Shown here piece after piece: positions 9,265-62,822 of a DNA stretch of 64,000 nucleotides. The notes below the pieces were generated by a model. It was given only the letters and a program-made list of their open reading frames with translations, was not told the origin of the DNA and made no database searches. Location: the NCBI RefSeq assembly GCF_034057115.1, contig NZ_CP139195.1:1798001-1862000 (forward strand). The letters are read 5' to 3'. Numbering within the stretch: the stretch's first letter is position 1; the number at the start of each line of letters is the position of its first letter. The DNA is from Pseudomonas sp. AN-1. GTDB lineage: Bacteria; Pseudomonadota; Gammaproteobacteria; Pseudomonadales; Pseudomonadaceae. The translations under genes were made by a program, and so were the position numbers.

Positions 9265-13323
<4,059 letters not shown>

Positions 13324-23024: not shown

Positions 23025-23044
23025 CCGTCACGGAGGGGTTCACC

Positions 23045-24220: not shown

Positions 24221-24266
24221 CACGCTCCACCCGGAGCGGCCCCATCCCCCGCCAGAGGGCACGGAA

Positions 24267-45144: not shown

Positions 45145-45157
45145 TAAGGAATAACCG

Positions 45158-46216
45158 ATGAAAATCCTCATTACCGGCGGCGCCGGATTTATCGGCTCGG
45201 CAGTCGTTCGTCACATCATCCGCCATACTGCTGCTAGCGTGATCAACTTAGACAAACTGACCTATGCTGGCAACCTCGAATCCCTCGCGGAAACCAGCGG
45301 CAGCACGCGCTATGCCTTCGAGCAGGTGGATATCTGCGACCGCACCGAAGTCGAGCGGGTATTCCGTGAGCACCTGCCCGATGCAGTAATGCACCTTGCC
45401 GCCGAGTCACACGTTGATCGCTCCATCGACGGCCCAGCTGCATTCATCGAAACTAATATTATCGGCACCTATACCCTACTGGAGGTCGTTCGCCACTACT
45501 GGCAAGGGCTGAGCGAAGCACGCCAGAGGACCTTCCGCTTTCACCACATCTCCACCGACGAGGTGTATGGAGACCTGGAAGATCCGGAAGACTTGTTCAC
45601 CGAAACAACCCCCTACGCGCCTAGCAGCCCCTACAGTGCCAGCAAGGCCAGCTCCGACCATCTGGTGCGCGCATGGCGGCGCACCTACGACCTACCGACC
45701 CTCATCACCAATTGCTCGAACAACTACGGCCCCTACCATTTCCCGGAGAAGCTCATCCCGCTGATGATCCTCAACGCCTTGGAAGGCAAGCCGCTGCCCG
45801 TCTACGGCAAGGGCAACCAGGTGCGTGACTGGCTGTACGTCGAGGACCACGCCCGAGCTCTCTACAAGGTCTTCACTGAAGGCGAGATCGGCGAGACCTA
45901 TAACATCGGCGGCCACAACGAGAAGCAAAACATCGAAGTGGTACACACCCTTTGCGACCTGCTTGACGAACTGCGCCCGCGAGCCGATGGCCACTCCTAC
46001 CGCAGCCAGATCACTCACGTCCAGGATCGCCCCGGCCACGACCTGCGCTACGCCATCGACGCCAGCAAGATCCAGCGCGAACTGGGCTGGACGCCGGAGG
46101 AAACCTTCGAGTCCGGCATCCGCAAGACCGTCGAGTGGTACCTGAACAACCAAGACTGGTGCCGTCGCGTGCAGGACGGCAGCTACCAGCGCGAGCGCCT
46201 CGGCGCCATTGCATAA
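45158..46216 (+). CDS. rmlB: dTDP-glucose 4,6-dehydratase
   Basis: This 352-residue extended SDR has [18 protein letters not shown], the [14 protein letters not shown] segment diagnostic of RmlB, and [12 protein letters not shown]. The catalytic region is [12 protein letters not shown] and [14 protein letters not shown]. It converts dTDP-glucose to dTDP-4-keto-6-deoxyglucose. With rmlA and wecE but without rmlC or rmlD in the window, the route leads to dTDP-4-amino-4,6-dideoxygalactose rather than to rhamnose. AAGGA precedes the start by 8 bp. Confidence 0.95.
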
Positions 46217-46230
46217 GGAATTGACACACA

Positions 46231-47112
46231 ATGAAAGGCATCATCCTCGCCGGAGGTTCCGGCACACGCCTGTATCCGATCACCAAGGGCGTATCCAAGC
46301 AGTTGCTACCCATCTACGACAAACCGATGGTCTATTATCCGCTATCGGTACTGATGCTCGCCGGTATCCGCGACATCCTGCTGATCAGCACTCCGGAAGA
46401 CATCGGCGCCTTCAAGCGCCTGCTCGGCGATGGTAGCGAATTCGGTATCAGCCTCACTTACGCCGTGCAGCCCAGCCCGGACGGCCTGGCCCAGGCCTTC
46501 ATCATCGGCGAAGAGTTCATCGGCAACGATTCGGTGTGCTTGGTACTAGGCGACAATATTTTCTACGGTCAGGGCTTCAGCCCCATGCTGCACCAGGCAG
46601 CCCAGCGCGAGAAAGGCGCCACCGTGTTCGGCTACCAGGTGAAAGATCCCGAGCGCTTCGGCGTAGTCGAGTTCGATGCCGACAAGCGCGCCATTTCCAT
46701 CGAGGAAAAACCCTTCAAGCCCAAGTCCAACTACGCAGTCACCGGTCTGTACTTCTACGACAACGACGTGGTGGCGATGGCAAAGAGGGTCAGGCCCTCG
46801 GCACGCGGTGAGCTGGAAATCACCAGCATCAACCAGACCTACCTGGAGCGAGGCGACCTCAACGTCGAACTGCTCGGTCGCGGCTTCGCCTGGCTGGATA
46901 CCGGCACCCATGAAAGCCTGCTGGAAGCCGCGCACTTCGTCGAAACCATCGAGAAGCGCCAGGGCTACAAGGTCGCCTGCCTGGAAGAGATCGCCTTTTA
47001 CAACGGCTGGCTGACCGCCGATGACCTGCAACGCATCGGCCAGTCGCTGAGCAAGAACGGTTATGGCCAGTACCTTCTGTCGTTGATCCAGTCCGTGCAG
47101 GGTGCACCGTGA
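46231..47112 (+). CDS. rmlA: Glucose-1-phosphate thymidylyltransferase
   Basis: The 293-residue nucleotidyltransferase begins [18 protein letters not shown], with [33 protein letters not shown] and [16 protein letters not shown]. All are standard for RmlA/RffH. It joins dTTP and glucose-1-phosphate to dTDP-glucose. It follows rmlB by 14 bp and overlaps the next gene by 4 bp, although that gene is far more A/T-rich. The sharp compositional break therefore falls exactly at the rmlA stop codon. Confidence 0.95.
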
Positions 47113-48146
47113 TACTTCATGTAGCAAGCCTCGACAAGTTCATTCCTCCGTTCATTGATTTTCTAGCCAAGAACTTTGACTCTTCTCAGCATCGTTTCTG
47201 GCTTAACGGTGATAGAAATCGATACCCCTACCAAGACAATACGAGCACATACCAAGTAAAGCCTGGATTCCTTGGAGAGGCCACGGCTTATCTTCGGCTT
47301 GCGATGGAATTAAATAGAGCAGAAAAGGTAATTCTTCACGGACTTTTTGATCCAAAAATAATTATTATATTAAGCAGCATGCCCTGGCTGCTCAGGAATT
47401 GTTACTGGATTATCTGGGGTGGTGACCTTTACGTCCGCAACCTAGAAAAAAAAAACTGGAAGTGGCATCTCGGAGAGCTTTTTCGCTCCTTTGTAATAAA
47501 GCGAATTGGCCACTTGGTAACTTACATTGAAGGAGACGTGGATTTAGCCAGGAAATGGTACGGCGCAACAGGTAAGCATCATGAATGCCTGATGTACACA
47601 AGCAACCTGTACAGCGATCCAAACGCAATAAGTAGCCATAAAAAAACAATCAATATACAGGTTGGAAACTCGGCAGACCCAAGCAACAACCACATCGAAG
47701 CTCTGAAGAAACTTTTGCCATACAAAGATAGCGACATCAAGATTCATGTGCCGCTTTCATATGGCGACCAAGCATATGCAAGCACCGTCATTCGCCAAGG
47801 CTCAGAATGGTTTGGTGAAAAACTCAAGCCACTCACCGACTTCATGCCACTTGAAGAGTACCTCGAACTGCTTGGCGATATTGATATTGCCATGTTCAAC
47901 CACCGACGCCAGCAAGCCATGGGAAACACAATAACCCTTCTAGGGCTCGGCAAGAAAGTTTTTCTTCGCAGCGACGTAACGCCTTGGAAAATGTTCAAGA
48001 AAAATAAGATCACCGTATACGACATAGAAGACTTCGATATATCGCCAATGGATACAGAAATCAGCAAGAAAAACCAGGAATTCATCAGGGAACACTTTTC
48101 AAGAGAAAAACTTGCACTCCAGCTAAAAGAAGTTTTCGAGAGCTAA
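47109..48146 (+). CDS. TDP-N-acetylfucosamine:lipid N-acetylfucosaminyltransferase-like (WecF/GT56 family)
   Basis: The 345-residue protein resembles WecF of the enterobacterial common antigen pathway: [31 protein letters not shown], then [17 protein letters not shown] and [22 protein letters not shown]56 enzymes transfer Fuc4NAc from dTDP-Fuc4NAc to a lipid-linked acceptor. That donor is exactly what rmlA, rmlB, wecE and the acetyltransferase next door would make. The gene is markedly A/T-rich with runs of AAA codons, unlike rmlA directly before it, suggesting separate acquisition. Confidence 0.85.
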
Positions 48147-48147
48147 C

Positions 48148-48711
48148 ATGACCTACTACACAGAAGATCAACTTTTGAGCATGGGCTTCAAGAGTCTTGG
48201 GAAAAATGTCAAGATTAGCGACAAAGCCAGCATCTACAACACCGAGGCAATAGAGATAGGGGATAACTCCAGAATAGACGACTTTTGCGTAATTTCTGGA
48301 AAAATAAAAATAGGCTCATATTGCCACATAACCCCTATGTGCCTTATTGCGGGCGGCGAGCCCGGAGTATTCCTATCGGACTTCTGCACCCTCGCATATG
48401 GCGTGAAAGTTTTCTCCCAATCAGATGATTACAGCGGAGAAACATTAACAAACTCTCTGATACCAAAAAAATACAAATCTGAAAAATTTAGTTCAATCAA
48501 GCTCGAAAAACATGTAATCATTGGCGCAGGATCGATAATCTTCCCAGGGGTCACTTTAGCTGAAGGCTGCTCAGTCGGTGCTATGTCTCTTGTAAACAAA
48601 AGCACACAACCTTGGGGGATTTATGTAGGGAACCCGGCTCGCCGACTGAAAGATAGAAAAAAAGACCTCCTGGAACTGGAAAGACAATTCATGGAAGAGC
48701 AGAGCCAATGA
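48148..48711 (+). CDS. Hexapeptide-repeat acyltransferase (probable dTDP-Fuc4N N-acetyltransferase)
   Basis: The 187-residue left-handed beta-helix protein has repeated I-G-x4 turns (AIEIGDNSRIDDFCVISGKI, IKIGSYCHITPM) and the late GAGSIIFPGVTLAEG and GIYVGNPARRLKDRKKD. E. coli uses WecD, a GNAT-fold enzyme, for acetylation of dTDP-Fuc4N. No WecD-like gene is present here, so this LbH enzyme between the WecF-like gene and wecE is the best candidate for that step. That role is inference. It is A/T-rich, starts 1 bp after the preceding gene's stop and overlaps wecE by 4 bp. Confidence 0.82.
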   Translation: MTYYTEDQLLSMGFKSLGKNVKISDKASIYNTEAIEIGDNSRIDDFCVISGKIKIGSYCHITPMCLIAGGEPGVFLSDFCTLAYGVKVFSQSDDYSGETLTNSLIPKKYKSEKFSSIKLEKHVIIGAGSIIFPGVTLAEGCSVGAMSLVNKSTQPWGIYVGNPARRLKDRKKDLLELERQFMEEQSQ

Positions 48712-49838
48712 TCCCATTCAACAAGCCCCCTTACACTGGTAACGAAGATCAGCACGTACTCGCCGCCATGCGCAGCAGCAAGATCAGCGGCGATGGTGAG
48801 TTCAGCAAGCGCTGCCAGGGATGGTTTGAAGCCGGAACCGGTTGCCAGAAGGCATTGCTGACCCCCTCATGCACGCACGCCTTGGAAATGGCAGCCATCC
48901 TGATCGATGTACAGCCCGGCGATGAGATAATCATGCCCAGCTATACATTTGTTAGTACGGCAAATGCGTTCGTCTTGCGTGGTGCTAAAATAGTTTTTGT
49001 CGATATCCGCCCGGACACCATGAATATCGATGAAAACTTGATCGAAGCTGCAATCACAGAAAAGACCAAAGCCATCGTTCCCGTGCACTATGCCGGCGTA
49101 GCCTGTGAAATGGATACGATTATGGCAATCGCTGAGCGTCATCAGCTTTTCGTCATCGAAGATGCCGCACAAGGTATGATGTCCAGCTACAAAGGCCGCC
49201 AACTGGGCAGCATTGGCCATCTGGGTGCTTACAGCTTCCATGAAACCAAGAATTATACCAGCGGTGGCGAAGGTGGATTGCTGCTTATCAATGATGAGCG
49301 ATTCATCAATCGTGCAGAAATCATCCGTGAGAAAGGCACAAACCGTAGCCAATTTTTCCGCGGCATGGTCGACAAGTACAGCTGGGTAGATGTTGGCAGC
49401 AGCTACCTTCCGAGCGAAATACAGGCCGCCTATCTATGGGGGCAACTCGAGAAGGCGGAAGAAATCAACTCGAACCGCCTGAGAACCTGGAACTATTACC
49501 AGAAGGCACTGGTGTCTCTCGCCAGAGATTGCAAAATAGTCTTGCCCAATCATCCAGTCGAATGTATTCACAATGCCCACATGTTCTATCTCAAGGTCAA
49601 AAACCTTGACGAGCGCACTTCCCTGCTGGATCACCTGAAGAACAATGGCGTGCTTGCTGTTTTCCACTACATACCACTGCACTCTGCGACCGTCGGCCCC
49701 AAATTCAGCCGCTTCCATGGAGAGGATAATTTTACAACAACAGAAAGTGAGCGACTAATCCGCCTACCCATCTGGCATGGCATGTCCACTGGAGACGTGC
49801 AGAAAGTCGTGCAGTCTGTCTTTGAGTTCTTCGCTTGA
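48708..49838 (+). CDS. wecE: dTDP-4-amino-4,6-dideoxygalactose transaminase
   Basis: The 376-residue DegT-family PLP enzyme has the PLP lysine at Lys181 in FHETKNYTSGGEGG, the same position as in E. coli WecE. Other family features are IPFNKPPYTGNEDQHVLAA and IEDAAQGMMSSYKG. It transfers an amino group from glutamate to dTDP-4-keto-6-deoxyglucose, yielding dTDP-4-amino-4,6-dideoxygalactose. Its composition is intermediate between rmlA and the A/T-rich genes around it. The wzx start codon overlaps its stop. Confidence 0.95.
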   Translation: MIPFNKPPYTGNEDQHVLAAMRSSKISGDGEFSKRCQGWFEAGTGCQKALLTPSCTHALEMAAILIDVQPGDEIIMPSYTFVSTANAFVLRGAKIVFVDIRPDTMNIDENLIEAAITEKTKAIVPVHYAGVACEMDTIMAIAERHQLFVIEDAAQGMMSSYKGRQLGSIGHLGAYSFHETKNYTSGGEGGLLLINDERFINRAEIIREKGTNRSQFFRGMVDKYSWVDVGSSYLPSEIQAAYLWGQLEKAEEINSNRLRTWNYYQKALVSLARDCKIVLPNHPVECIHNAHMFYLKVKNLDERTSLLDHLKNNGVLAVFHYIPLHSATVGPKFSRFHGEDNFTTTESERLIRLPIWHGMSTGDVQKVVQSVFEFFA

Positions 49839-51277
49839 ATATCAGAAAGATTGCTCAATTCGCAATTGGCCCTATCGGCAGTGCCGCCCTTGGTTTCGTT
49901 ACCCTGCCGATCATCACTTGGTTCTATTCGGCCGAAGATATCGGCCGAATAGCCATGCTTCAAGTGATATCCAGCCTCTGCATCTTGCTACTTAGCCTCG
50001 GATTAGATCAGGCCTATGTACGGGAGTACTACGAAGCTGAACAGAAGCCCGCGCTGCTCAAAGCAACACTCACGCCAGGCCTTTTGCTATTGACGATTAC
50101 TCTGGGTATTACCCTGCTGATCCCTGGCGTAGTTTCTAAGGTACTGTTCTCCATCGACAGTTCTGAAATTAGTTGGCTGGTCGGTGTATGTCTGCTGGCT
50201 GGCTTTGCCTCCAGGTTCCTTTCCCTGGTTTTGCGGATGCAGGAGAAAGGGCTGGCGTTTTCCATCAGTCAGGTCTTGCCCAAAGCCCTCTTTCTCATGG
50301 TCATCGGCAGCTACTATTTGCTGACACTCGGCTTTGACTTCTTCCATCTGGTTATTGCCCACACGATATCAATTCTGGCAGCAACCCTGGTGCTTGCTTG
50401 GAACACCCGCACGGAATGGCTGGTCATGCTCAACCAGCGCATAGACTTCATTCAACTTAAAAAAATGCTGCGCTTCGGTATGCCCCTTATCATAGGCGGT
50501 ATCGCCTACTGGGGGCTGACTACGATGGACAAATTGTTCCTACGCAATTTCTCCACTTTCGAGGAATTGGGCATCTACTCAGTTGCCTCGAATTTTGCCG
50601 CCGCTGCGATCATCTTTCAGAGTGTATTCTCAACCGTCTGGGCTCCAACAGCTTACAAATGGGCCGCTGAGGGTATAAAAAATGAAAAGATCGATCAGGT
50701 AACCGAGTACGTATTGGCTGTCGTTGTGTTTGCTTTCGCTTTTGCTGGTCTTTTTTCATGGGTCGTCACGTATCTTCTCCCAGAAAAATATGATCGCGTG
50801 CAGCACATCCTCGTAGCATGCATAGCCTACCCGCTTTTTTACACACTATCAGAGACGACATCAATTGGTATTGGAATAACGAGAAAAAGCACCTATGCCA
50901 TGCTGGCGTCACTGACTTCAGCTTTTACCAATCTTATTGGCAACTACCTACTGGTACCAATCTATGGCGCAGAAGGTGCTGCCATTTCCACAGCAATTGC
51001 ATTCTGGATATTTCTTGTTTGTCGCACGGAACTCTCATGCTTCGCATGGCGAAAATTCCGAAGACTCAAGCTATATGCACTCACCCTAACATGCCTGATC
51101 TCCGCCATCGCTCAAACAAGCCTCCACAAAGCTCACAATGAATTCATATTCATCATATGGATCACAATAGGATTAATAGCCACACTCTCCATGAAAAAAA
51201 CACTAAAAGCTGCAAAAATAAAAATATCGAACCACATTAAGAAACAGCAAATTCCCCGACCAGGCAATCAAAATTGA
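49835..51277 (+). CDS. wzx: Wzx-type O-unit flippase (MOP superfamily), locus 2
   Basis: The 480-residue protein has about 12 predicted membrane helices. It opens NIRKIAQFAIGPIGSAALGF, with YSAEDIGRIAMLQV, both usual for Wzx. The start is the TTG at 49835, overlapping the wecE stop (TTGA). The first in-frame ATG would remove the first membrane helix, so TTG is preferred. It should flip the undecaprenyl-PP-linked unit made by the WbpL, WbjE-like and WecF-like transferases. The 3' end becomes very A/T-rich, with Lys codons AAA. Confidence 0.9.
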   Translation: MNIRKIAQFAIGPIGSAALGFVTLPIITWFYSAEDIGRIAMLQVISSLCILLLSLGLDQAYVREYYEAEQKPALLKATLTPGLLLLTITLGITLLIPGVVSKVLFSIDSSEISWLVGVCLLAGFASRFLSLVLRMQEKGLAFSISQVLPKALFLMVIGSYYLLTLGFDFFHLVIAHTISILAATLVLAWNTRTEWLVMLNQRIDFIQLKKMLRFGMPLIIGGIAYWGLTTMDKLFLRNFSTFEELGIYSVASNFAAAAIIFQSVFSTVWAPTAYKWAAEGIKNEKIDQVTEYVLAVVVFAFAFAGLFSWVVTYLLPEKYDRVQHILVACIAYPLFYTLSETTSIGIGITRKSTYAMLASLTSAFTNLIGNYLLVPIYGAEGAAISTAIAFWIFLVCRTELSCFAWRKFRRLKLYALTLTCLISAIAQTSLHKAHNEFIFIIWITIGLIATLSMKKTLKAAKIKISNHIKKQQIPRPGNQN

Positions 51278-51290
51278 AAGAAATCTAAAA

Positions 51291-52247
51291 ATGCAGTCAA
51301 CTACTAAAAAAGCAACTGCCGCGCTATTAGCAACAGCCTGGTTCGCTTTAAGCCTCTACATATTACCTTATTACACAAATGGCGACCAAATAGCCTATCG
51401 ATTAGTCTATGAAATTGCAAAAAATCTTAGCTTTTCAGACGGATTCAACACCTACACTGCAGTATTAGGCTCAAAAGAGCCAGGATACTTCATCCTGGCA
51501 TACACATTTTCCCCAATAATTCAAAAAGACTGGCTTATTGCAACAGCAAACGGAATCCTTGGATACCTACTTATAGCATCCTTACTTAAAAGAAACGCAT
51601 CGATCATTGTAGCACTAACCCTACTCCCAAACTTCTACATTATGGTTCTGCTATTTTCTGCGGAAAGACTTAAGTTTGGAGCAATTCTGTTTTTTCTGGC
51701 AGTAATCAGCGAAAACAAAAAAAGAATCATATCAGCGATCCTTGCAGTGCTCACACATACACAATTCATGTTGCTAGCAGCAAGCCTTTTACTATCGAAA
51801 ACAGCCCAACAAGGCATTGAAGAAAAAAACAAAAACACACTCAAAAAATACACCAACCACATACTAGCCATAGCAACAGCAACCATAACAGTATTTTTAC
51901 TAAAGGACCACATACAGGGAAAGCTCAATTTTTACTCATCAGCCAACAGTGGCGCATCACTAGAAAACCTTATAAAGCCCATCGTATTCTTACTCCTTAC
52001 TCTTTTCTATGCAAAAAAAGAAAAGACCCAAGCAGCATTAATGCATGCACCGATCATTGCGGCGTCGCTCGTAGTTGGTGAAGATCGAATAGTAATATTC
52101 TCATACTTCATCTTCATGCTCTACTCCCTAAAAACAAACAAGGGCATAAACATAGGTGTACTTGCCACATCCTTTTATTTCGGAGTGAAAGGATTTTTAT
52201 TTCTAGGAAACATAATTAATTATGGAAACGGCTTCCATGGTCAATAA
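51291..52247 (+). CDS. wzy: Probable Wzy polymerase (EpsG-like multi-pass membrane protein)
   Basis: The 318-residue protein is very hydrophobic, with about nine or ten predicted membrane helices, and strongly A/T-rich. N-terminal features (YILPYYTNGDQIAYRLVYE, SKEPGYFILAY) resemble EpsG/Wzy-type polymerases, where D-x-x-x-Y and G-Y-motifs are common. No other polymerase candidate exists in locus 2, and it sits between wzx and a glycosyltransferase gene, the classical position. Sequence divergence is high in this family, so assignment rests mainly on topology and context. Confidence 0.7.
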   Translation: MQSTTKKATAALLATAWFALSLYILPYYTNGDQIAYRLVYEIAKNLSFSDGFNTYTAVLGSKEPGYFILAYTFSPIIQKDWLIATANGILGYLLIASLLKRNASIIVALTLLPNFYIMVLLFSAERLKFGAILFFLAVISENKKRIISAILAVLTHTQFMLLAASLLLSKTAQQGIEEKNKNTLKKYTNHILAIATATITVFLLKDHIQGKLNFYSSANSGASLENLIKPIVFLLLTLFYAKKEKTQAALMHAPIIAASLVVGEDRIVIFSYFIFMLYSLKTNKGINIGVLATSFYFGVKGFLFLGNIINYGNGFHGQ

Positions 52248-53439
52248 AAAAGGGAAAATAAAAATACTGACTTTCAGTGAATATTATCTACCAGGATACA
52301 AAGGGGGGGGACCACTGCGCACCATATCGAATATGGTAAAATCTTTGAGCGATGCGTTTGAGTTCTGGATTATCACCTCAGATCGCGACCTTGGCGATAC
52401 AAAAAGATATCCGTCAATCGAAATAAATACTTGGCAAAACCTGTATGGATCGAACGTATACTACACGCCAAAGAAGGACATGACCCCACAAAAAATATCA
52501 AATATAATATCATCTACAGACCACGACATAATATATATAAATAGCTTTTTTTCGTTAAGATACTCCATAATCCCATTAATTGGAGCAAAACTCTACAAAC
52601 CCACAAGAAAACCGATACTGGTTGCGCCGCGCGGCGAGTTTTCACCAGGAGCATTACAGTTTAAAAAAACCAAGAAAGCGATATACATAACAACAAGCAA
52701 AATAACAGGACTTTATAGAAATGTTTTCTTTCAAGCCTCAAGCGAGCACGAAGCGCACGACATCAGAAAAGCATTAAGCTTACCGCCGAAAAAAGTCAAA
52801 GTCGCCAAAAACATCCCAGACATATCACTCCCAGAGTGCGCACAAACACCCTTCACCGAAAAAACCCTAAGGGTAGTTTTCTTATCCCGCATCACCCCTA
52901 AAAAAAACCTAGCCTTCGCTATCAATATACTCTCGCACGTAAAATCTAAAATCATATTTGACATATACGGCCCCAAAGAAGATATTGAATACTGGGAGAA
53001 GTGCCAAAAACTAATAAGTCAGCTCCCTGAAAACATAAAAGCCGAATACAAAGGCAGCATCCACCCAAACCTAGTGAAAAGCACATTCTCCAAATATGAC
53101 TTATTTCTTTTCCCAACGCACGGCGAGAACTATGGCCACGTCATTGCCGAGTCGCTAATATGCGGAACACCAGTACTAATAAGCGATCAAACACCATGGA
53201 AAAATTTGGGCGAAAAAAATCTTGGGTGGGAACTCCCACTAACCGAAAAAATAGTTTTTTCAGAAAAGATTGAGCAACTTTCTGCGCTAAACCAAAAAGA
53301 AAGAAGCGAACAAAGAAAAAAAGTCCAGCAATCAGCAATCGCCATAATATCAGACCCTGAAATCATCCAAGACAATATCTCCCTATTCAATTCAATACTT
53401 CAAGAATCAATAAACAAAAATCACCCGAGAGCATTTTAA
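52222..53439 (+). CDS. Glycosyltransferase family 4, A/T-rich
   Basis: The 405-residue GT-B protein has an N-terminal acceptor part with KILTFSEYYLPGYKGGGPLR and a donor part with VVFLSRITPKKNLAFAINIL. The nucleotide-sugar motif FPTHGENYGHVIAESLICG carries the conserved glutamates. The annotated ATG overlaps the polymerase gene by 26 bp. The in-frame ATG at 52237 has a better placed GGA and may be the real start. It presumably adds a locus-specific sugar, possibly glucuronic acid. Its composition is among the most A/T-rich in the window. Confidence 0.87.
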   Translation: METASMVNKKGKIKILTFSEYYLPGYKGGGPLRTISNMVKSLSDAFEFWIITSDRDLGDTKRYPSIEINTWQNLYGSNVYYTPKKDMTPQKISNIISSTDHDIIYINSFFSLRYSIIPLIGAKLYKPTRKPILVAPRGEFSPGALQFKKTKKAIYITTSKITGLYRNVFFQASSEHEAHDIRKALSLPPKKVKVAKNIPDISLPECAQTPFTEKTLRVVFLSRITPKKNLAFAINILSHVKSKIIFDIYGPKEDIEYWEKCQKLISQLPENIKAEYKGSIHPNLVKSTFSKYDLFLFPTHGENYGHVIAESLICGTPVLISDQTPWKNLGEKNLGWELPLTEKIVFSEKIEQLSALNQKERSEQRKKVQQSAIAIISDPEIIQDNISLFNSILQESINKNHPRAF

Positions 53440-53445
53440 AAACCC

Positions 53446-54483
53446 ATGTCTTTCAACAAAAGAAACCTCCTCATAACTGGTGGAACCGGCTCCTTTGGCA
53501 ACGCCGTCCTCAAGCGCTTCCTCGACACTGACATCGCAGAAATCCGCATTTTCAGCCGCGACGAGAAGAAGCAGGATGACATGCGCAAGCGCTATGCTAA
53601 TCCCAAGCTGAAGTTCTATATCGGCGATGTGCGCGATTACCAGAGCGTACTGAATGCAACTCGTGGGGTTGACTATATCTTCCATGCCGCAGCGCTCAAG
53701 CAGGTGCCGTCCTGCGAGTTCCATCCCATGGAGGCGGTCAAGACCAACGTGATCGGCACCGAGAACGTCCTGGAGGCAGCCATCCAGAACGAGGTCAAGC
53801 GCGTGGTGTGCCTGAGCACCGACAAGGCCGTCTATCCGATCAACGCCATGGGCATTTCCAAGGCGATGATGGAAAAGGTCATGGTCGCCAAGTCGCGTAA
53901 CGTCGACGAGCGCAAGACTGTGATCTGCGGCACCCGCTACGGCAACGTGATGGCCTCGCGCGGCTCGGTGATCCCGCTATTCATCGAGCAGATCCGTGCC
54001 GGTAAGCCGCTGACCCTGACCGACCCGAACATGACCCGCTTCATGATGACCCTCGCGGATGCCGTGGATCTGGTGCTGTATGCCTTCGAGCACGGCAACA
54101 ACGGCGATCTGTTCGTGCAGAAAGCCCCCGCTGCTACCGTCGAGACCCTGGCCCGCGCGCTCACCCGCCTGATGGACCAGATGAATCACCCCATCCAGGT
54201 GATCGGCACCCGCCATGGCGAGAAGCTCTACGAAGCGCTGCTCAGCCGCGAGGAGATGGCCTGCGCCGAGGACATGGGCGACTACTTCCGTGTGCCGCCG
54301 GACCTGCGCGACCTCAACTACTCCAAGTTCGTCGAGCAGGGCGAGGAGAAGATTTCCCACACCGAGGATTACAACTCACACAACACCGAGCGTCTGGATG
54401 TCGAGGGCATGCAGCAACTGCTGCTGAAGCTGGACTTCATGCGCGCCATCCAGCGCGGCGAACACGCGACCCCCGAGGAATAA
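53446..54483 (+). CDS. wbjB: UDP-GlcNAc 4,6-dehydratase/5-epimerase of UDP-L-FucNAc synthesis (WbjB/FnlA/CapE)
   Basis: The 345-residue SDR has LLITGGTGSFGNAVLKRF, HAAALKQVPSCEFHPMEAV and the catalytic STDKAVYPINAMGISKAMME segment, with Met in place of Tyr. C-terminally it has PLTLTDPNMTRFMMTLADAV. The enzyme takes UDP-GlcNAc to the 4-keto-6-deoxy L-sugars used by WbjC. It is a soluble, inverting enzyme, unlike WbpM. The sequence is A/T-rich for the first 50 or so bases and then GC-rich, so the downstream boundary of the A/T-rich island lies at this gene's start. Confidence 0.95.
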   Translation: MSFNKRNLLITGGTGSFGNAVLKRFLDTDIAEIRIFSRDEKKQDDMRKRYANPKLKFYIGDVRDYQSVLNATRGVDYIFHAAALKQVPSCEFHPMEAVKTNVIGTENVLEAAIQNEVKRVVCLSTDKAVYPINAMGISKAMMEKVMVAKSRNVDERKTVICGTRYGNVMASRGSVIPLFIEQIRAGKPLTLTDPNMTRFMMTLADAVDLVLYAFEHGNNGDLFVQKAPAATVETLARALTRLMDQMNHPIQVIGTRHGEKLYEALLSREEMACAEDMGDYFRVPPDLRDLNYSKFVEQGEEKISHTEDYNSHNTERLDVEGMQQLLLKLDFMRAIQRGEHATPEE

Positions 54484-54486
54484 GGG

Positions 54487-55605
54487 ATGAAGGTACTGAT
54501 CACCGGCGCCAACGGATTCGTCGGCAAGAACCTGGTTGCCCATCTGGGCGAGCGGAGCGATGTAGAAGTTCTGCGCTTCACCCGGACTGAGCCGCTGGAA
54601 AGTCTGTCAGCCCTGGTGGCTCAGGCTGACTTCGTGTTCCACCTGGCCGGCGTCAATCGCCCTCAGGATCCCCAGGAGTTCGTGAGCGGCAACACCGATC
54701 TGACCCGGGCACTGTGCGAGTCGATAGTCGCCAGTGGCCGGCAGATTCCGCTGCTGTACACCTCCTCGATCCAGGCCGAGCTGGACAATCCCTACGGCGC
54801 CAGCAAGCGCGGCGCCGAAGAAGCGCTGCTGGATCTGGCTGCCAGCCATGGCTCAGCCGTGCATCTGTTCCGCCTGCCCAATGTGTTCGGCAAGTGGGCA
54901 CGCCCCAACTACAACTCGGCAGTGGCGACCTTCTGTCACAACATCGCACGCGACCTGCCGATCCAGATCAACGATCCGCAGGCGCGCATCAACCTCGTCT
55001 ACATCGATGACGTGATCGCTCATTTCATTGCGGTGATGGACGGCAAGCTGGCCGGTGAGCCTTTCGTCACCGTCGAGCCGCAGTACAGCATCACCGTTGG
55101 CGAGTTGGCCGCGCAACTGGAGACTTTCCGTGACAGCCGCAAGACTCTGGTCACCGAGCCGGTGGGCCGCGGACTGGTACGCGCGCTGTACTCGACCTAT
55201 CTCAGCTATGTGCCGCCCGAGCGCTTCACCTACGAAGTGCCCAAGTATGGCGACCAGCGTGGCGTGTTCGTGGAAATGCTCAAGACCCGCGACTCCGGGC
55301 AGTTCTCCTTCTTCACCGCCCATCCCGGCATCACCCGCGGTGGCCACTACCACCACTCGAAAACCGAGAAGTTCCTGGTCATCAAGGGACAGGCCTGCTT
55401 CCGCTTCCGTCACATCGACTCCGGCGAGTTCCACGAACTGTTCACCAGCGGCGACAAGCCGGAAATCGTCGAGACCGTGCCCGGCTGGACCCACGACATC
55501 ACCAACGTCGGCGACGAGGAAATGATCGTGATGCTGTGGGCCAACGAGATCTTCGACCGCGAACACCCGGACACCTATGCCCGGCCGGTCGGCACCGAAG
55601 CCTGA
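54487..55605 (+). CDS. wbjC: UDP-L-FucNAc pathway reductase/epimerase with C-terminal cupin (WbjC/FnlB/CapF)
   Basis: The 372-residue protein joins an N-terminal SDR (VLITGANGFVGKNLVAHL; YGASKRGAEEALL) to a C-terminal cupin domain from about residue 250. The cupin metal site is visible in TRGGHYHHSKTEKFLVIKG. This two-domain layout is that of CapF/WbjC, which epimerises and then reduces the keto-sugar to UDP-6-deoxy-L-talose-type HexNAc. It lies 3 bp after wbjB and 36 bp before wbjD, giving the standard BCD order. Confidence 0.94.
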   Translation: MKVLITGANGFVGKNLVAHLGERSDVEVLRFTRTEPLESLSALVAQADFVFHLAGVNRPQDPQEFVSGNTDLTRALCESIVASGRQIPLLYTSSIQAELDNPYGASKRGAEEALLDLAASHGSAVHLFRLPNVFGKWARPNYNSAVATFCHNIARDLPIQINDPQARINLVYIDDVIAHFIAVMDGKLAGEPFVTVEPQYSITVGELAAQLETFRDSRKTLVTEPVGRGLVRALYSTYLSYVPPERFTYEVPKYGDQRGVFVEMLKTRDSGQFSFFTAHPGITRGGHYHHSKTEKFLVIKGQACFRFRHIDSGEFHELFTSGDKPEIVETVPGWTHDITNVGDEEMIVMLWANEIFDREHPDTYARPVGTEA

Positions 55606-55641
55606 GCGGCTTTGGCTACTGTTCAAGAATCAGGACTTGCA

Positions 55642-56772
55642 ATGAAAAAGCTGAAAGTTGTCACCGTGGTCGGCACTCGACCGGAAATCATCCGCCTGTC
55701 GCGGGTCATGGCCAAGCTGGATGAGCACTGCGAGCACGTGCTGGTACATACCGGACAGAATTACGACTACGAGCTGAACGAGATCTTCTTCCAGGATCTG
55801 GGCATCCGCAAACCGGACCACTTCCTCAATGCCGCCGGTGCCAGCGGTGCGGAAACCATTGGTAACGTGATCATCGCCGTGGATCGCGTGCTCGCCGAAG
55901 TGCGGCCGGAAGCCCTGCTGGTGCTGGGCGATACCAACAGCTGCATGGCGGTGATTCCGGCCAAGCGTCGCAAGATTCCGACCTTTCACATGGAGGCCGG
56001 CAACCGCTGTTTCGACATGCGGGTACCGGAAGAAATCAACCGCCGCATCGTCGACCACACCGCCGACATCAATCTGACCTACAGCACCATCGCCCGCGAC
56101 TACCTGCTGCGCGAAGGCCTGCCGGCGGACATGGTAATCAAGACCGGCAGTCCGATGTTCGAGGTGCTCAATCACTACCGCGATGGCATCGAAGCTGCGG
56201 ACATACTGGAACGCCTGGGCCTGGAAGCCGGCAAGTTCTTCGTGGTCAGCGCCCACCGCGAGGAGAATGTCGACTCCGACAAGAACTTCCTCAAGCTGGT
56301 CGAGGTGCTCAACAGCGTTGCCGCCCACTACGGCTACCCGGTAATCGTCTCCACCCACCCGCGCACCCAGAAGCGCGTGGATGCCATGGGGGTGCAGTTC
56401 CACTCGAACGTGCGTCTGCTCAAGCCGCTGGGCTTCAAGGACTACAACAAGCTTCAGCTCACCGCCAAGGCGGTGCTGTCCGACAGCGGAACCATCAACG
56501 AGGAGTCCTCGATCCTCAACTTCCCGGCCCTCAACCTGCGCGAGGCCCATGAGCGCCCCGAAGGCATGGAGGAAGCCGCAGCGATGATGGTCGGGCTGGA
56601 GGTCGAACGCGTGATGCAGGCGTTGCAGATCTTGGAAAGCCAGGCCCGCGGTGAAGAGCGTAGCCTGCGCCTGGTCGGCGACTACAGCATGCCCAACGTG
56701 GCCGACAAGGTAGTACGGATCATCCATAGCTATCGCGACTATGTGATGCGTACTGTCTGGAAAAAATACTGA
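55642..56772 (+). CDS. wbjD: UDP-L-FucNAc synthase, non-hydrolysing C2-epimerase (WbjD/FnlC/CapG)
   Basis: The 376-residue protein belongs to the UDP-GlcNAc 2-epimerase fold. It has VTVVGTRPEIIRLSRVMAKL, HTGQNYDYELNEIFFQDLGI, FHMEAGNRCFDMRVPEE, SAHREENVDSDKN and LSDSGTINEESSILN. As the third gene after wbjB and wbjC it completes UDP-N-acetyl-L-fucosamine. The ATG at 55642 is chosen; an in-frame TTG at 55612 would add ten residues without a ribosome site. A WbpI-like activity is less likely given the gene order. Confidence 0.94.
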   Translation: MKKLKVVTVVGTRPEIIRLSRVMAKLDEHCEHVLVHTGQNYDYELNEIFFQDLGIRKPDHFLNAAGASGAETIGNVIIAVDRVLAEVRPEALLVLGDTNSCMAVIPAKRRKIPTFHMEAGNRCFDMRVPEEINRRIVDHTADINLTYSTIARDYLLREGLPADMVIKTGSPMFEVLNHYRDGIEAADILERLGLEAGKFFVVSAHREENVDSDKNFLKLVEVLNSVAAHYGYPVIVSTHPRTQKRVDAMGVQFHSNVRLLKPLGFKDYNKLQLTAKAVLSDSGTINEESSILNFPALNLREAHERPEGMEEAAAMMVGLEVERVMQALQILESQARGEERSLRLVGDYSMPNVADKVVRIIHSYRDYVMRTVWKKY

Positions 56773-56797
56773 CTATCGGGATGCTGGCGACGCTAAC

Positions 56798-58000
56798 ATG
56801 ACAAAAGTTTTCGTAGTTTCTGAATATGTCTATTCAGCTCAAAATTCCACTGGTTATTTCTGGTCCAAAGTCATCGACAAGGCCGGCCAGCACTTTCGAG
56901 GAATTAGCGTCGTCACGCCAACTTCAAGCGAGCAAGACTGCACAAAGAGCAAAGTTCCAGGCGTAAGCTACCTAGAGTTCGACGCCATAAAATTCAACAA
57001 GAACAAGCTAGCCTCACGCCTAATTGGCCAATCCCGCCAATGCGTGGGTTTTTTACGCCACATGCTTCGCCACGTTCGACGTGGCGACATCGTTCTATCA
57101 GGAACCAACCCCGCCCTCCTGCTTTTCCTGATCCCCATCATGAAAAAGTTCACAGGTTTTCGCTGGTGCCTATTGGTTCATGACGTCTTTCCAGAAAATC
57201 TTGTTCCTGCAGGAATACTTAGAAAAAGCAGCCCCTCCTATCGCTTATTCAGCAGACTCTTCAACCTGATTTACTCCCGCGCCGACCATTTGATTGTGAT
57301 CGGACGAGACATGAAAGAACTCATGAGCAAAAAAACGGGAAGCGATACCAACATCACTGTCATCCAGAACTGGGTCAGTGATCATGACGTTTACCCCGAG
57401 AGCCGAGCCGACTCAGAAATACTCAACCGATTGGATTGGCGGGATCGGATAATCTTCCAGTTCTTCGGAAACATTGGCCGCGTCCAGGGAATCGATAATA
57501 TCCTGGCAGCCATCAAGTTGGTGAAAAGCCCGAAAGCCGCCTTTCTCTTCATTGGAGATGGCAGCTCAGCAAAGACAGTCAAGGAGTTCATCGAAAACCA
57601 TCCCGGTGACAATATTGCATATATTGGACCTCTCGATCAGAGTCAGAAAAAACTTGGCCTTGCCGCCTGCGATGTAGCGCTGATCACCCTCGAGAAGGGG
57701 ATGCTGGGACTCGGCGTTCCCAGTAAGGCATATTTTTCCATGGCTGCAGACAAGCCATTGCTTGCAGTAATGGAGGACACGGCTGAAATCGCACGCATGA
57801 TCCATGAGGAAGCCATCGGCTGGAGTTGCGCCCCTGACGATCCGGCAGCATTAGCTGCCCTGATCGACAACATCTGCCAAGCGCATATCTCCAGCATGCA
57901 TGGACATCCCCGCAAGGTTCTTCAAGAAAAGTATTCGGAATCTGCCGCACTAGATAAGTTCATCGCATGCATGAACTCCGTCATTGAGGCCAAGAAATGA
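56798..58000 (+). CDS. Glycosyltransferase family 4 (WbjE/WbuB-like, probable L-FucNAc transferase)
   Basis: The 400-residue GT-B enzyme contains GDIVLSGTNPALLLFLIPIM in the acceptor half. The donor half has FFGNIGRVQGIDNILAAIKL and LEKGMLGLGVPSKAYFSMAA. The family includes WbuB, the L-fucosamine transferase, and the location directly after wbjBCD supports L-FucNAc as donor. Composition is moderately A/T-rich, between that of wbjD and the island upstream. It overlaps the next gene by 4 bp. Confidence 0.85.
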   Translation: MTKVFVVSEYVYSAQNSTGYFWSKVIDKAGQHFRGISVVTPTSSEQDCTKSKVPGVSYLEFDAIKFNKNKLASRLIGQSRQCVGFLRHMLRHVRRGDIVLSGTNPALLLFLIPIMKKFTGFRWCLLVHDVFPENLVPAGILRKSSPSYRLFSRLFNLIYSRADHLIVIGRDMKELMSKKTGSDTNITVIQNWVSDHDVYPESRADSEILNRLDWRDRIIFQFFGNIGRVQGIDNILAAIKLVKSPKAAFLFIGDGSSAKTVKEFIENHPGDNIAYIGPLDQSQKKLGLAACDVALITLEKGMLGLGVPSKAYFSMAADKPLLAVMEDTAEIARMIHEEAIGWSCAPDDPAALAALIDNICQAHISSMHGHPRKVLQEKYSESAALDKFIACMNSVIEAKK

Positions 58001-58953
58001 AAGTATTGTTGACTGGCGCCAATGGATTTCTTGGCAGGCAGGTTTTGGAGTCCTGTCAACTCCGGAATCTAGAGGTGTTGGCATGTGCTCGCAATGTTGA
58101 CACCGCGAAACCAGGCTGGGCCAAATCTCCAGACTTGGGACCAACAGCTGACTGGGGAAATCTTCTCAGCGGCATCGATGTGGTCATCCATACGGCTGGT
58201 ATTGCACATCGGCTTGGAAAAGACGGCCCCGATTTACGCCAGCATTTCCAGAACGTGAATGTAGAAGGCACGCTCAACCTTGCGCAACAGGCCCTGCGCG
58301 CGGGCGCAAAGCGCTTCATCTTCATTAGCTCGATTGGTGTAAATGGCGCCCAAACCACAGAAAGCTCCTGCTTCAGCGAACACTCCATTCCAACACCTCA
58401 CGCTGATTATGCCATTTCAAAACACCAAGCAGAGTTGCGCTTGAAGGCACTACTGAGTGACAGCGCCATGGAACTAGTCATCATACGACCTCCATTGGTA
58501 TATGGTGCCCACGCACCAGGCAACTTCCAGCGTCTGCTTAAACTGGTTTCTGCTCGCCTCCCCCTGCCTCTGGGAAGGATAAAAAACCGCCGCAGCATGG
58601 TGGCGCTGGAGAATCTTGCTGACTTCATTGCGCACTGCGTTGCTCATCCTGCTGCAGCCAATGAACTTTTCCTGATTTCGGATGGCATAGATGTCTCCAC
58701 TCCAGACATCGTTAGGCATCTGGCCGCCGGCATGGGGCATGAAAGTCGCCTTCTACCGGTGCCAGTGGCATTGATGCGCTATGGCGCGAACTTGCTAGGC
58801 AAGAGGCCGATTTACACACAACTCTGTGGCTCGCTGGCCATCGACTCCAGCAAGGCTCGCAATCAGCTTGGCTGGACTCCACGTTTAACACCTGAACAGG
58901 CTCTATTCAGAGCTGGGCAAGATTACCAAAAGCTTCTTGCATCCCGCATCTGA
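57997..58953 (+). CDS. wbpV: NAD-dependent epimerase/4-keto-reductase (WbpV-like)
   Basis: The 318-residue SDR has VLLTGANGFLGRQVLES, HTAGIAHRLGKDG, FISSIGVNG and the catalytic YAISKHQAEL, then RPPLVYGAHAPGNF. WbpV-type enzymes reduce the product of WbpM to UDP-D-QuiNAc (or UDP-D-FucNAc for WbpK types). The order wbpV-wbpL-wbpM is that of P. aeruginosa O-antigen loci. QuiNAc versus FucNAc specificity cannot be settled by inspection. Confidence 0.82.
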   Translation: MKVLLTGANGFLGRQVLESCQLRNLEVLACARNVDTAKPGWAKSPDLGPTADWGNLLSGIDVVIHTAGIAHRLGKDGPDLRQHFQNVNVEGTLNLAQQALRAGAKRFIFISSIGVNGAQTTESSCFSEHSIPTPHADYAISKHQAELRLKALLSDSAMELVIIRPPLVYGAHAPGNFQRLLKLVSARLPLPLGRIKNRRSMVALENLADFIAHCVAHPAAANELFLISDGIDVSTPDIVRHLAAGMGHESRLLPVPVALMRYGANLLGKRPIYTQLCGSLAIDSSKARNQLGWTPRLTPEQALFRAGQDYQKLLASRI

Positions 58954-58975
58954 CTTTCCTCCAGAGATTCTTACG

Positions 58976-60631
58976 ATGTCGTTTTGGCTCCTTTTACCGG
59001 TCTTGGCCGGCCTGTCTCTTGCGCTGACTGGTGGCTTGCGTCGCTATGCATTGGCACGCAGCATCATGGATATTCCCAATGCACGCAGCTCGCATAGTGT
59101 TCCAACCCCCCGTGGTGGTGGAGTGGCGATTGTGCTGAGCTTTCTACTTGCCTTGCCGTTGCTGGGACTAGCCAAGCTGGCGAGTTGGGATCAAGTGTGG
59201 GCTCTGCTGGGGGCGGGTGCAGGCATCGCGATACTCGGCTTTCTCGATGACCATGGACATATCGCCGCGCGCTGGCGTCTGCTGGGGCATTTCGCCGGAG
59301 CCATCTGGGCGCTGTTCTGGCTGGGCGGACTTCCTCCGCTGATGATCTTCGGCTACTCCCTCGACCTGGGTTGGGCGGGTCATCTGCTCGCCGCGGTCTA
59401 TCTGGTCTGGATTCTCAACCTCTACAACTTCATGGATGGCATTGACGGTATTGCCAGCGTCGAGGCCATCAGTGTCTGCCTCGGCGGCGTCCTGCTGTAT
59501 GCCTTGCTTGGTGCATCCTCGGCAGCCGTGGCGCCGCTACTGCTCGCGGTGGCGGTAGCGGGCTTCCTGTACTGGAACTTCCCCCCGGCACGGATCTTCA
59601 TGGGCGATGCCGGCAGCGGCTTTCTCGGTATTACCCTGGGCATCCTGTCGCTGCAGGCTGCGTGGGTAGCACCGCAGTTGTTGTGGAGCTGGGTGATCCT
59701 GCTAGGCGTTTTTATCGTCGATGCCACCTTCACCCTGCTCCGTCGACTGCTGCGCGGCGACAAGGTCTATGAGGCCCACCGCAGCCATGCCTATCAGTAT
59801 GCATCTCGCCAGTTTGGTCGGCATTTGCCAGTAACACTGGCTGTAGGCGCGATCAACCTGTTCTGGCTGCTGCCGATAGCCCTGTGGGTCGGTCTCGGTG
59901 GCGTTGAGCCAGTATTGGGTGTGCTGATCGCCTATCTGCCGCTGGTACTGCTGGCAATCAAGTTCCGCGCAGGAGAACTGGAGAAGCCGGAGACGCGGAA
60001 GCGTACCTTGCTGGTATTGGGTGCCGGCGGACATGGCAAGGCAGTGGCCGAAGCCGCATTGCTGTCAGGCGAATGGCAGCAGGTACGTTTTGTTGACGAC
60101 CGCTGGCCACTGCTCAGTGAGTCCTTCGGGTTGCCGGTGGTTGCCAATATCGCGACGCTAGCCGGGGTGGCCGGAGAGGCAGATGCCGCCATTCCGGCAG
60201 TGGGTAACAATGCCTTACGCGAACAATGGCTCTCCGAGATCCGCTCGACCGGGCTAAGCGTGGCAACAGTGACTCACCCACTCGCCTGTATCAGCCCCTC
60301 GGCAAGAATCGGAGAAGGCACGGCGGTAATGGCTTTGGCCATGGTCGGCGTCGACGTGCACATTGGCGTAGGCGCGATCATCAACGCCAATGCCACGGTG
60401 GACCATGATGCCAGCTTGGGCGACTTTGCCCATCTGGGGGTTGGTGTACAGATTGCTGGTGGGGTGCAGATTGGCTCTCGGACCTGGTTGCAAGCTGGCT
60501 GCTGTGCCGGATACAACGTCGTTGTACCCGATGGGGCCATTATGCCGCCCGGTCAAATATTGGAAGTCAATGCAACGCCTGAATCCCGCGCCGGTGCAAG
60601 AGAACACCACCCGTCTGTTTCCCTTGCGTGA
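58976..60631 (+). CDS. wbpL: WbpL-type undecaprenyl-phosphate HexNAc-1-phosphate transferase fused to a PglD/NeuD-like acyltransferase
   Basis: The 551-residue protein has two parts. Residues 1 to about 345 are a polytopic polyprenyl-phosphate phosphoglycosyl transferase of the WecA/WbpL family (SVPTPRGGGVAIV, GFLDDHGHIAARWR, NFMDGIDGIAS, IFMGDAGSGFLG and AHRSHAYQYASR). It moves QuiNAc- or FucNAc-1-phosphate to undecaprenyl phosphate to start O-unit assembly. From about residue 358 a PglD/NeuD-like part follows: LLVLGAGGHGKAVAEAALL, then hexapeptide turns (ARIGEGTAVMALAMVGVDVH, ANATVDHDASLGDFAHLGVG). The frame is continuous, with no stop or shift at the join. WbpL alone is about 340 residues, so this is a true fusion. 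The ATG at 58976 starts the first membrane helix. Confidence 0.9.
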   Translation: MSFWLLLPVLAGLSLALTGGLRRYALARSIMDIPNARSSHSVPTPRGGGVAIVLSFLLALPLLGLAKLASWDQVWALLGAGAGIAILGFLDDHGHIAARWRLLGHFAGAIWALFWLGGLPPLMIFGYSLDLGWAGHLLAAVYLVWILNLYNFMDGIDGIASVEAISVCLGGVLLYALLGASSAAVAPLLLAVAVAGFLYWNFPPARIFMGDAGSGFLGITLGILSLQAAWVAPQLLWSWVILLGVFIVDATFTLLRRLLRGDKVYEAHRSHAYQYASRQFGRHLPVTLAVGAINLFWLLPIALWVGLGGVEPVLGVLIAYLPLVLLAIKFRAGELEKPETRKRTLLVLGAGGHGKAVAEAALLSGEWQQVRFVDDRWPLLSESFGLPVVANIATLAGVAGEADAAIPAVGNNALREQWLSEIRSTGLSVATVTHPLACISPSARIGEGTAVMALAMVGVDVHIGVGAIINANATVDHDASLGDFAHLGVGVQIAGGVQIGSRTWLQAGCCAGYNVVVPDGAIMPPGQILEVNATPESRAGAREHHPSVSLA

Positions 60632-60758
60632 CATCTGTCGCGTTCATTCCATATCGTAAGGCACTGATGGCAAAATGTTGCCCGAGTTTTCAATGGCGAC
60701 GACCCAGGCTTCATCTGGGCTTTGCTCGCATCCGGCTTGACTCTTCAGGGATCGTCCA
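60632..60758 (+). other. Spacer before wbpM
   Basis: A 127-bp gap containing a small stem (GGCAA/TTGCC followed by CGAGTTTT) and a second one (CCCAG/CTGGG). It may hold a weak terminator and an independent promoter for wbpM; nothing is clear enough to place. Confidence 0.3.
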
Positions 60759-62822
60759 ATGAAAGGAAATCTACCTGCCCTGCGTCAGCAGTTGCTTGAT
60801 CTTCCGCGTGCCAAGAAACGCCTCCTCCAGGTAGCGGTCGATGTACTGCTGCTCTGGCTGGCCCTCTGGCTGGCCTTCGCCATCCGACTGGACGACATGA
60901 GCCAGGTGGAGCCGTTCGGACACCATGCCTGGCTGTTCCTCGCCGCACCGGCGGTGGGCCTGCCGCTGTTCGTGCGCCTGGGCATGTACCGCGCGGTGAT
61001 GCGCTACCTGGGCAACGAGGCGCTGGTCTCCATCGGCAAGGCGGTGACCCTTTCCGCCCTGCTGCTGGCTCTGGTGATCGTCCTCTGGGGCGACACTCCG
61101 GCACTGGTACCGCGCTCCATCGTCTTCAACTACTGGTGGCTCAGCCTGCTGCTGATCGGCGGCCTGCGCGTGGCCATGCGCCAGTACTTCACCGGCGACT
61201 GGTTCAACCTGGCCAGCCTCTCCTTCCGCTCACAGGATGGCGACCAGCCCAAGGTAGCGATCTACGGTGCCGGCATTGCCGGCAACCAGCTGGTCAAGGC
61301 GCTGCGCATGGATCGCACCATGCGCCCGGTAGCCTTCATCGACGACGACCGCAGCCTGGCCAAGCGGGTGATCGCCGGCCTGCCGGTGTACCGCCCGCGG
61401 CAGATTCAGCGCATGCTCGAGGAAACCGGCACCGAGGAGATTCTCCTCGCCATTCCTTCGGCTTCGCGCGTGCGGCGTCGCGAGATTCTCGAGATGCTCG
61501 AGCCGCTGCCGGTACACGTGCGCTCGATTCCCAGCTTCATGGACCTGGCCAGCGGCAAGGTCAATGTTTCCGATCTGCAGGAAGTGGACATCGCCGACCT
61601 GCTCGGTCGTGACCCGGTGGCGCCGCAGGCCGTGCTGTTCGAACGCTGCATCCGTGGCCAGGCCGTGATGGTGACCGGCGCCGGCGGTTCCATCGGCTCG
61701 GAGCTGTGCCGGCAGATCGTCGGCAGCGAACCGACCACGCTGATTCTCTACGAGCACTCGGAATTCAACCTGTACAGCATCCATACCGAACTGGAGCAGC
61801 GCATCCGTCGCGAGGGGCTCAAGCTGCGGCTGGTGCCGATCCTCGGCTCGGTACGCAATGCCGGGCGCATGTTCGACGTCATGCGCAGCTGGCGCGTGGA
61901 TACCGTCTACCATGCTGCGGCCTACAAGCATGTGCCGATGGTCGAGCACAACATCGCCGAGGGCGTGCTGAACAATACCCTGGGGACCCTGCACACGGCG
62001 CAGGCGGCACTGCGCGCCGGCGTGCCCAACTTCGTGCTGGTCTCCACCGACAAGGCGGTGCGCCCGACCAACGTGATGGGCAGCACCAAGCGCATGGCCG
62101 AGCTGGTGCTGCAGGCGCTGGCACGGGAAAAGCAGGTGGCGCTCTACGAGGTGCCGGGCGAGGCTCCGGTGACCAACCGTACCCGCTTCACCATGGTGCG
62201 TTTCGGCAACGTGCTGGGTTCGTCCGGCTCGGTGATCCCGCTGTTCCGCGAGCAGATCAAGCGCGGCGGCCCCATCACCGTGACCCATCCGGAAATCACC
62301 CGCTATTTCATGACCATCCCCGAGGCCGCGCAGCTGGTGATCCAGGCCGGCGCCATGGGCGAAGGCGGCGACGTGTTCGTGCTGGACATGGGCGAGCCGG
62401 TGAAGATCGCCAAGCTGGCGGAGAAGATGATCCATCTCTCCGGCCTCAGCGTGCGCTCGAAGGACAACCCGGCGGGCGATATCGCCATCGAGTTCACCGG
62501 CCTGCGCCCCGGCGAGAAGCTCTACGAGGAACTGCTCATCGGCGACAACGTGCTGCCCACCGATCATCCGATGATCATGCGCGCCAACGAGGACTACATC
62601 TCCTGGAACGAGCTGAAGGTACTGCTGCGTGCGCTGGTCGATGCCATCAAGGCCGATGACTTCCTGGGCGTGCGCGAGCTGCTGCTGCAGATGGTCAGCG
62701 GTTATACCCCGGAAGCCGAGATCGTCGACCTGATCTACCGCCAGCGCGGCGGGGCTGCGGCCATCCCGCAGATTCCGTTGGTGACTCCCCGTCCGCAGGT
62801 GGTAGCGCACAAGGCATCGTAG
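60759..62822 (+). CDS. wbpM: UDP-GlcNAc/GalNAc 4,6-dehydratase, membrane-bound (WbpM)
   Basis: The 687-residue protein has N-terminal membrane helices (residues about 20-130), a middle Rossmann region ([18 protein letters not shown]) and the dehydratase domain. The latter carries [31 protein letters not shown] and [20 protein letters not shown]. It generates UDP-4-keto-6-deoxy-HexNAc for the WbpV-like reductase and the WbpL initiation step. Its position at the end of the locus is the same as in P. aeruginosa. The paralogue at 32870-34942 is in inverse orientation and similar throughout. Confidence 0.95.

Follow-up and report, generated by a model that had tools for sequence, protein, structure and literature searches.

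A WbpL-like polytopic phosphoglycosyl transferase and a PglD/NeuD-like acyltransferase joined in one reading frame of a Pseudomonas O-antigen cluster

The DNA analysed here, a stretch of 64,000 nucleotides from Pseudomonas sp. AN-1 (NZ_CP139195.1, positions 1,798,001 to 1,862,000; hereafter the window), contains at 58976-60631 on the forward strand a single uninterrupted frame of 551 codons, beginning with ATG, in which a WbpL-like transferase runs into a PglD/NeuD-like acyltransferase (Table 1). The explanation that we favour, by a modest measure, is that a wbpL gene and a PglD-like acyltransferase gene merged, and that the product is a WbpL bearing a cytoplasmic O-acyltransferase that acts on UDP-QuiNAc or UDP-FucNAc before loading.

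Table 1. Features of the fused frame and of the genes around it, in window coordinates.
Feature	Position	Strand	Remarks
WbpL-like polytopic phosphoglycosyl transferase half	58976..59986	+	Fusion residues 1-337; PF00953, motifs
Junction	59987..60007	+	Site of the ATGA/GTGA stop-start overlap in relatives; here both the stop and the ATG are gone and the frame is continuous
PglD/NeuD-like acyltransferase half	59996..60628	+	Fusion residues 341-551; PF17836, TIGR03570 match (below cut-off); nucleotide-sugar domain, then left-handed beta-helix
In-frame TTG, possible internal start	60008..60010	+	Marks where the first strand starts in free homologues; weak ribosome-binding match (GGAAG, 59997-60001)
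Catalytic His codon	60404..60406	+	Fusion residue 477, H137 of the acyltransferase half; aligned with C. jejuni PglD His125
C-terminal extension, predicted disordered	60578..60628	+	About 17 residues past the end of most homologues; pLDDT <50
RmlB, RmlA, WecF-like, hexapeptide acetyltransferase, WecE-like aminotransferase	45158..49838	+	dTDP-Fuc4NAc branch
WbjB, WbjC, WbjD, WbuB-like	53446..58000	+	UDP-L-FucNAc synthesis and transfer; NF047837 743.7 bits, TIGR00236 218.7 bits, PF02719
WbpV-like SDR (UDP-4-keto-6-deoxy-HexNAc 4-reductase), partner gene	57997..58953	+	Epimerase family
WbpM-like UDP-GlcNAc 4,6-dehydratase	60759..62822	+	PF02719, E 7.6e-124

A domain scan of the window proteins placed Glycos_transf_4 (PF00953, E 2.4e-35) at residues 75-227 of the fusion, PglD_N (PF17836, E 4.2e-15) at residues 345-421 and Hexapep at residues 443-476, in agreement with an earlier note on this DNA, which had read the frame as a fusion of these two enzymes. 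The N-terminal half belongs to the polytopic WecA/WbpL class: it carries PF00953 and not the PF02397 domain of monotopic PglB-type transferases, it has the hydrophobic segments of a multi-helix membrane protein, and the Asp-rich and NFMDG.DG motifs are present (DDHGH and NLYNFMDGIDG, together with FMGDAGS and HRSHAYQ). The C-terminal half scored 150.5 bits in the protein scan and 153.9 bits in the genome scan against TIGR03570 (NeuD/PglB/VioB), near but below the curated cut-off of 160.8 bits that sets membership. PF17836, the AlphaFold2 model and the structural matches agree on a PglD-like fold, PglD_N followed by a left-handed beta-helix, which is predicted with high confidence (mean pLDDT 92.7); residues 197-211 of this half had a pLDDT below 50, and its homologues stop at 190-198 residues, compared with 211 in the window.

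In another genome of the genus, G002, the counterparts of the two halves are separate genes, 75-83% identical to them and with the homologous ends intact; the WbpL half is 83% identical to the separate wbpL. The dN/dS ratios against G002 were about 0.07 for the WbpL half and about 0.12 for the acyltransferase half, and both halves therefore look functional; the low values point to purifying selection on each half and fit retained function with mild acceleration of the acyltransferase, whose branch in the tree is rather longer than that of G002 (0.36 versus 0.14). Judging from the continuous frame, the two halves would be expressed as one protein.

The junction DNA was compared with that of 10 two-gene relatives and of G002. 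In 27 of 37 related loci the wbpL stop and the acyltransferase start overlap by 4 nt, the genes being adjacent but separate, and the nearest relative, locus L129 of G002, has separate genes with ATGA at this point, its free acyltransferase gene lying at 9921-10496. The change from the two-gene form to the fused form would be small, most simply one short deletion. The internal TTG could still yield a free acyltransferase alongside the fusion.

Protein homology reaches the join from both sides, arguing that no out-of-frame stretch is present, and no homopolymer of at least three nucleotides was found in 59961-60018; the frameshift that the earlier note had named as a possible flaw was thus looked for without success. 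These findings bear on whether the fused frame is a sequencing or assembly artefact, in a genome that truly has the usual two overlapping genes. Such an artefact would account for the facts that all relatives have two frames, that only a small net frame change separates the two forms and that the fused form occurs in no second strain; the same-species genome, G006, does not carry the acyltransferase gene and so cannot confirm the join. The join requires loss of both a stop and a start, however, for which a single homopolymer miscall is insufficient, and the genome is a single contig with 0.27% contamination. The genes of the surrounding 18.8-kb cluster (43978-62822) are intact frames, which indicates good local sequence quality. 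Given the clean join, the lack of a homopolymer and the intact cluster, we regard an artefact as very improbable.

The earlier note proposed a search for the same fusion elsewhere, which gave none: no second WbpL fusion was found in overlapping samples of 8 genomes of the genus, 398 of the family, 390 of the order, 369 of the class and 398 of the phylum. When the acyltransferase half was the query, no frame longer than about 460 residues was detected in the other genomes of the genus (8) or the family (398), and the two that were read among four frames of 453-457 residues (L157 and L158) were both spurious upstream extensions. A tblastn search found no plasmid records covering both halves, and no WbpL-acetyltransferase fusion was found in the open-licence papers searched. 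Because it is absent from all other genomes searched, the fusion appears to be recent or strain-specific; the genome sets being overlapping samples, it may exist elsewhere.

Long frames around PglD-like or WbpL-like matches were read out individually, and all were rejected as second WbpL fusions. Those opened from the phylum sample were of three kinds, a Neisseria-type monotopic fusion, fusions with a lipoyl domain and spurious extensions. L234 is the monotopic fusion, L236 and L237 are plain WbpL-like frames, and L157, L158, L229, L230 and L232 appear to be spurious, either extended upstream or overlapping other genes. In L231 (298-1980, minus strand) and L233 (829-2169, plus strand) a NeuD/PglD-like hexapeptide acyltransferase is fused to a domain for biotin/lipoyl attachment (PF00364 and PF00132, with PF17836 in L231). 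These two lipoyl-domain fusions adjoin frames that read like the E1 beta subunit of a 2-oxoacid dehydrogenase, an arrangement that suggests acyl delivery from the lipoyl arm straight to a sugar acyltransferase.

The cluster has a G+C content of 0.54, compared with 0.64 for the whole window, and its genes at 47109-53439 have a very low third-position G+C, a pattern consistent with horizontal acquisition. Its aminotransferase (48708-49838) scored 673.8 bits against WecE; its neighbours are a WecF-like transferase (462.6 bits) and a hexapeptide acetyltransferase of its own, with rmlB and rmlA upstream; this set would explain a dTDP-Fuc4NAc residue without the fused domain. A separate G+C-rich cluster at 23000-25373 of the window contains two adjoining DegT-type aminotransferase genes and a FemAB-like gene, and the second DegT gene resembles PseC-type enzymes, below the cut-off.

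The relatives of the acyltransferase half split with 99% support into two groups, A and B, and the window falls in group A. Members of group A have the motif W-L-Q-A-G and end at about 190-198 residues; neither the fused protein nor any of the 34 motif-defined members has the VGVPA-type C-terminal tail, which 22 of 23 members of group B, the sister clade, possess. Of the 34 loci, 32 have a WbpV-like gene within 3 kb and 33 have WbpL as a neighbour. When L134, L156 and L217, which lack the exact motif and were placed by overall sequence and neighbourhood, are counted as well, no DegT aminotransferase is found within 3 kb of the acyltransferase in any of the 37 group A loci, in contrast to an adjacent one in 23 of 23 group B loci. 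The split is complete (Fisher p ~1e-13 for the motif-defined table, a value that overstates independence since the loci are related). Group B is the classical PglD situation with a 4-amino sugar, whereas the reductase that goes with group A yields a sugar with a hydroxyl at C4. In the 69 loci that carry wbpL without an acyltransferase, WbpV was present in 61 and an aminotransferase within 6 kb in 5, arguing that the WbpV-WbpL module is an ordinary QuiNAc/FucNAc starter.

There is some variation on this arrangement. In five loci of one genus of the family (L131, L132, L133, L136 and L139) the acyltransferase gene precedes wbpL, the pair being rearranged but still in the module. In L156, L214 and L217 the tail-less acyltransferase gene appears frameshifted or stop-bearing, and the modification seems dispensable and may vary between strains.

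The earlier note had supposed that the unit may start with a 4-amino sugar, in which case the WbpV-like gene would belong to another branch. Neither view agrees with the relatives, which place this acyltransferase with WbpV and WbpL; because they accompany a sugar reductase and not an aminotransferase, an O-acylated first sugar is more probable than a 4-amino one. The contrary reading, in which the fused domain, as a 4-N-acyltransferase, supplies WbpL with UDP-QuiNAc4NAc or a similar sugar and the aminotransferase is encoded elsewhere in the genome, draws on the closest solved relatives being N-acetyltransferases (PglB, PerB and PglD) and on the other DegT aminotransferases of the genome. We hold it to be quite unlikely in view of the group A and group B counts, of the missing CoA-linked tail and of the constant neighbour, since the WbpV reductase removes the 4-keto group that an aminotransferase needs. 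The nearest aminotransferase in the window is about 10 kb from the fusion, and not adjacent as DegT genes are to 4-amino-sugar N-acetyltransferases, and it is the WecE equivalent of the cluster. A PglD-like match alone is no evidence for a 4-amino sugar, as the genomic split shows, and the distinction between reductase-linked and aminotransferase-linked acyltransferases offers a simple, testable predictor of whether the first O-antigen sugar is O- or N-acylated.

The residues of the fused domain were considered against those of characterized enzymes. In PglD-type enzymes, which are trimers with active sites between subunits, two Asp residues hold the uracil and ribose, the catalytic His holds the sugar, a Gly amide holds the oxyanion, and a C-terminal coil with a cis-Pro folds back on CoA binding (PMC8040287). 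An alignment of 42 sequences shows no variation at the catalytic His, a second His, the oxyanion-hole Gly or the Asp pair, but the window clade has no such coil, which argues that UDP-sugar binding and base catalysis are retained and that donor binding must differ. The earlier note had named the lack of a catalytic His and CoA site as a refutation; the His is in place, and the CoA site matches expectation only in part, the tail being missing across the clade. Its view that the fusion co-localises acylation with transfer is a sensible one, and of the two substrates that it offered, the conserved uridine-binding Asp pair points to the UDP-sugar and not to the lipid-linked sugar. O-acetylation is documented within the family for NeuD (PMC8319020).

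O-acylation of UDP-QuiNAc or UDP-FucNAc is, with moderate confidence, the likeliest activity of the fused domain. Since the clade lacks the C-terminal tail of its CoA-dependent relatives, either the acyl donor may be something other than acetyl-CoA or the domain may serve a different purpose. The latter would apply if the domain is non-catalytic or uses another donor and mainly holds UDP-sugar or trimerises WbpL. The missing tail is compatible with such a role, as are the variability in the window clade of the residue whose PglD counterpart touches the 2-acetamido group and the few relatives in which the gene looks broken; the invariance of both His, the Gly and the Asp pair, together with the dN/dS of the acyltransferase half, makes it unlikely.

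Under the favoured explanation, acylation before loading, a small net frame change would have removed the shared 4-base stop/start and turned two neighbouring genes into one. WbpM and the WbpV-like reductase would supply UDP-D-QuiNAc or UDP-D-FucNAc; the acyltransferase domain would bind this UDP-sugar and, by means of its catalytic His, acylate one of the hydroxyls, most likely O-4. Transfer of the acylated sugar-1-phosphate to undecaprenyl phosphate by the WbpL domain would follow, and WbuB would then add L-FucNAc. WecA-type enzymes have a cytoplasmic C terminus, which puts the acyltransferase domain where UDP-sugars are, and might allow channelling between the two domains. A trimerised acyltransferase domain would also cluster WbpL.

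The same two proteins occur in Pseudomonas, Halopseudomonas, Thauera and others (L003, L006, L129 and others), mostly arranged as in the window, with wbpV and wbpM on either side; they differ from the window in being encoded by two genes, mostly with the 4-nt overlap and, in the one genus described above, with the acyltransferase first. NeuD, the sialic acid O-acetyltransferase, is a TIGR03570 protein, the family that the window half approaches, but it serves another sugar and pathway and is unfused to a transferase. Campylobacter PglD, Caulobacter PerB and Psychrobacter Pcryo_0637 share the fold, the catalytic His and the second His with the window half, and the uridine-binding Asp pair is common to the window clade, PglD and Pcryo_0637. 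Unlike the fusion, these three are free proteins with 4-amino-sugar substrates, and in PglD and Pcryo_0637 the chain continues past the point where the window clade ends, into a Pro-containing C-terminal tail whose conformation changes with CoA (PMC8040287).

The best structural match of the acyltransferase half was the acetyltransferase domain of Neisseria PglB (VIA Z 30.0, rmsd 1.5 over 189 residues), ahead of PerB (29.5) and PglD (26.6). Neisseria PglB is bifunctional, with a phosphoglycosyl transferase and a PglD-type acetyltransferase domain in one chain (PMC11130364). It resembles the fusion in the C-terminal position of the PglD-type domain; it differs in that its transferase is a small monotopic Bac_transf protein (PF02397, checked on the similar frame in L234), unrelated to the polytopic WbpL, and in that it acts on a 4-amino sugar. 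We put forward, with some doubt, the broader proposal that the tail-less PglD-like clade O-acylates the initiating UDP-QuiNAc or UDP-FucNAc, possibly from a donor other than acetyl-CoA, and is here welded to a polytopic transferase as a single polypeptide that acylates and loads the sugar, a parallel to Neisseria PglB with a transferase of unrelated origin. Fusion of a transferase to a PglD-type domain is established in PglB, and the polytopic counterpart found here in one genome is a new variant; if it is real, a C-terminal PglD-type domain has been gained by each of the two unrelated phosphoglycosyl transferase classes, suggesting that coupling acylation to lipid loading is useful.
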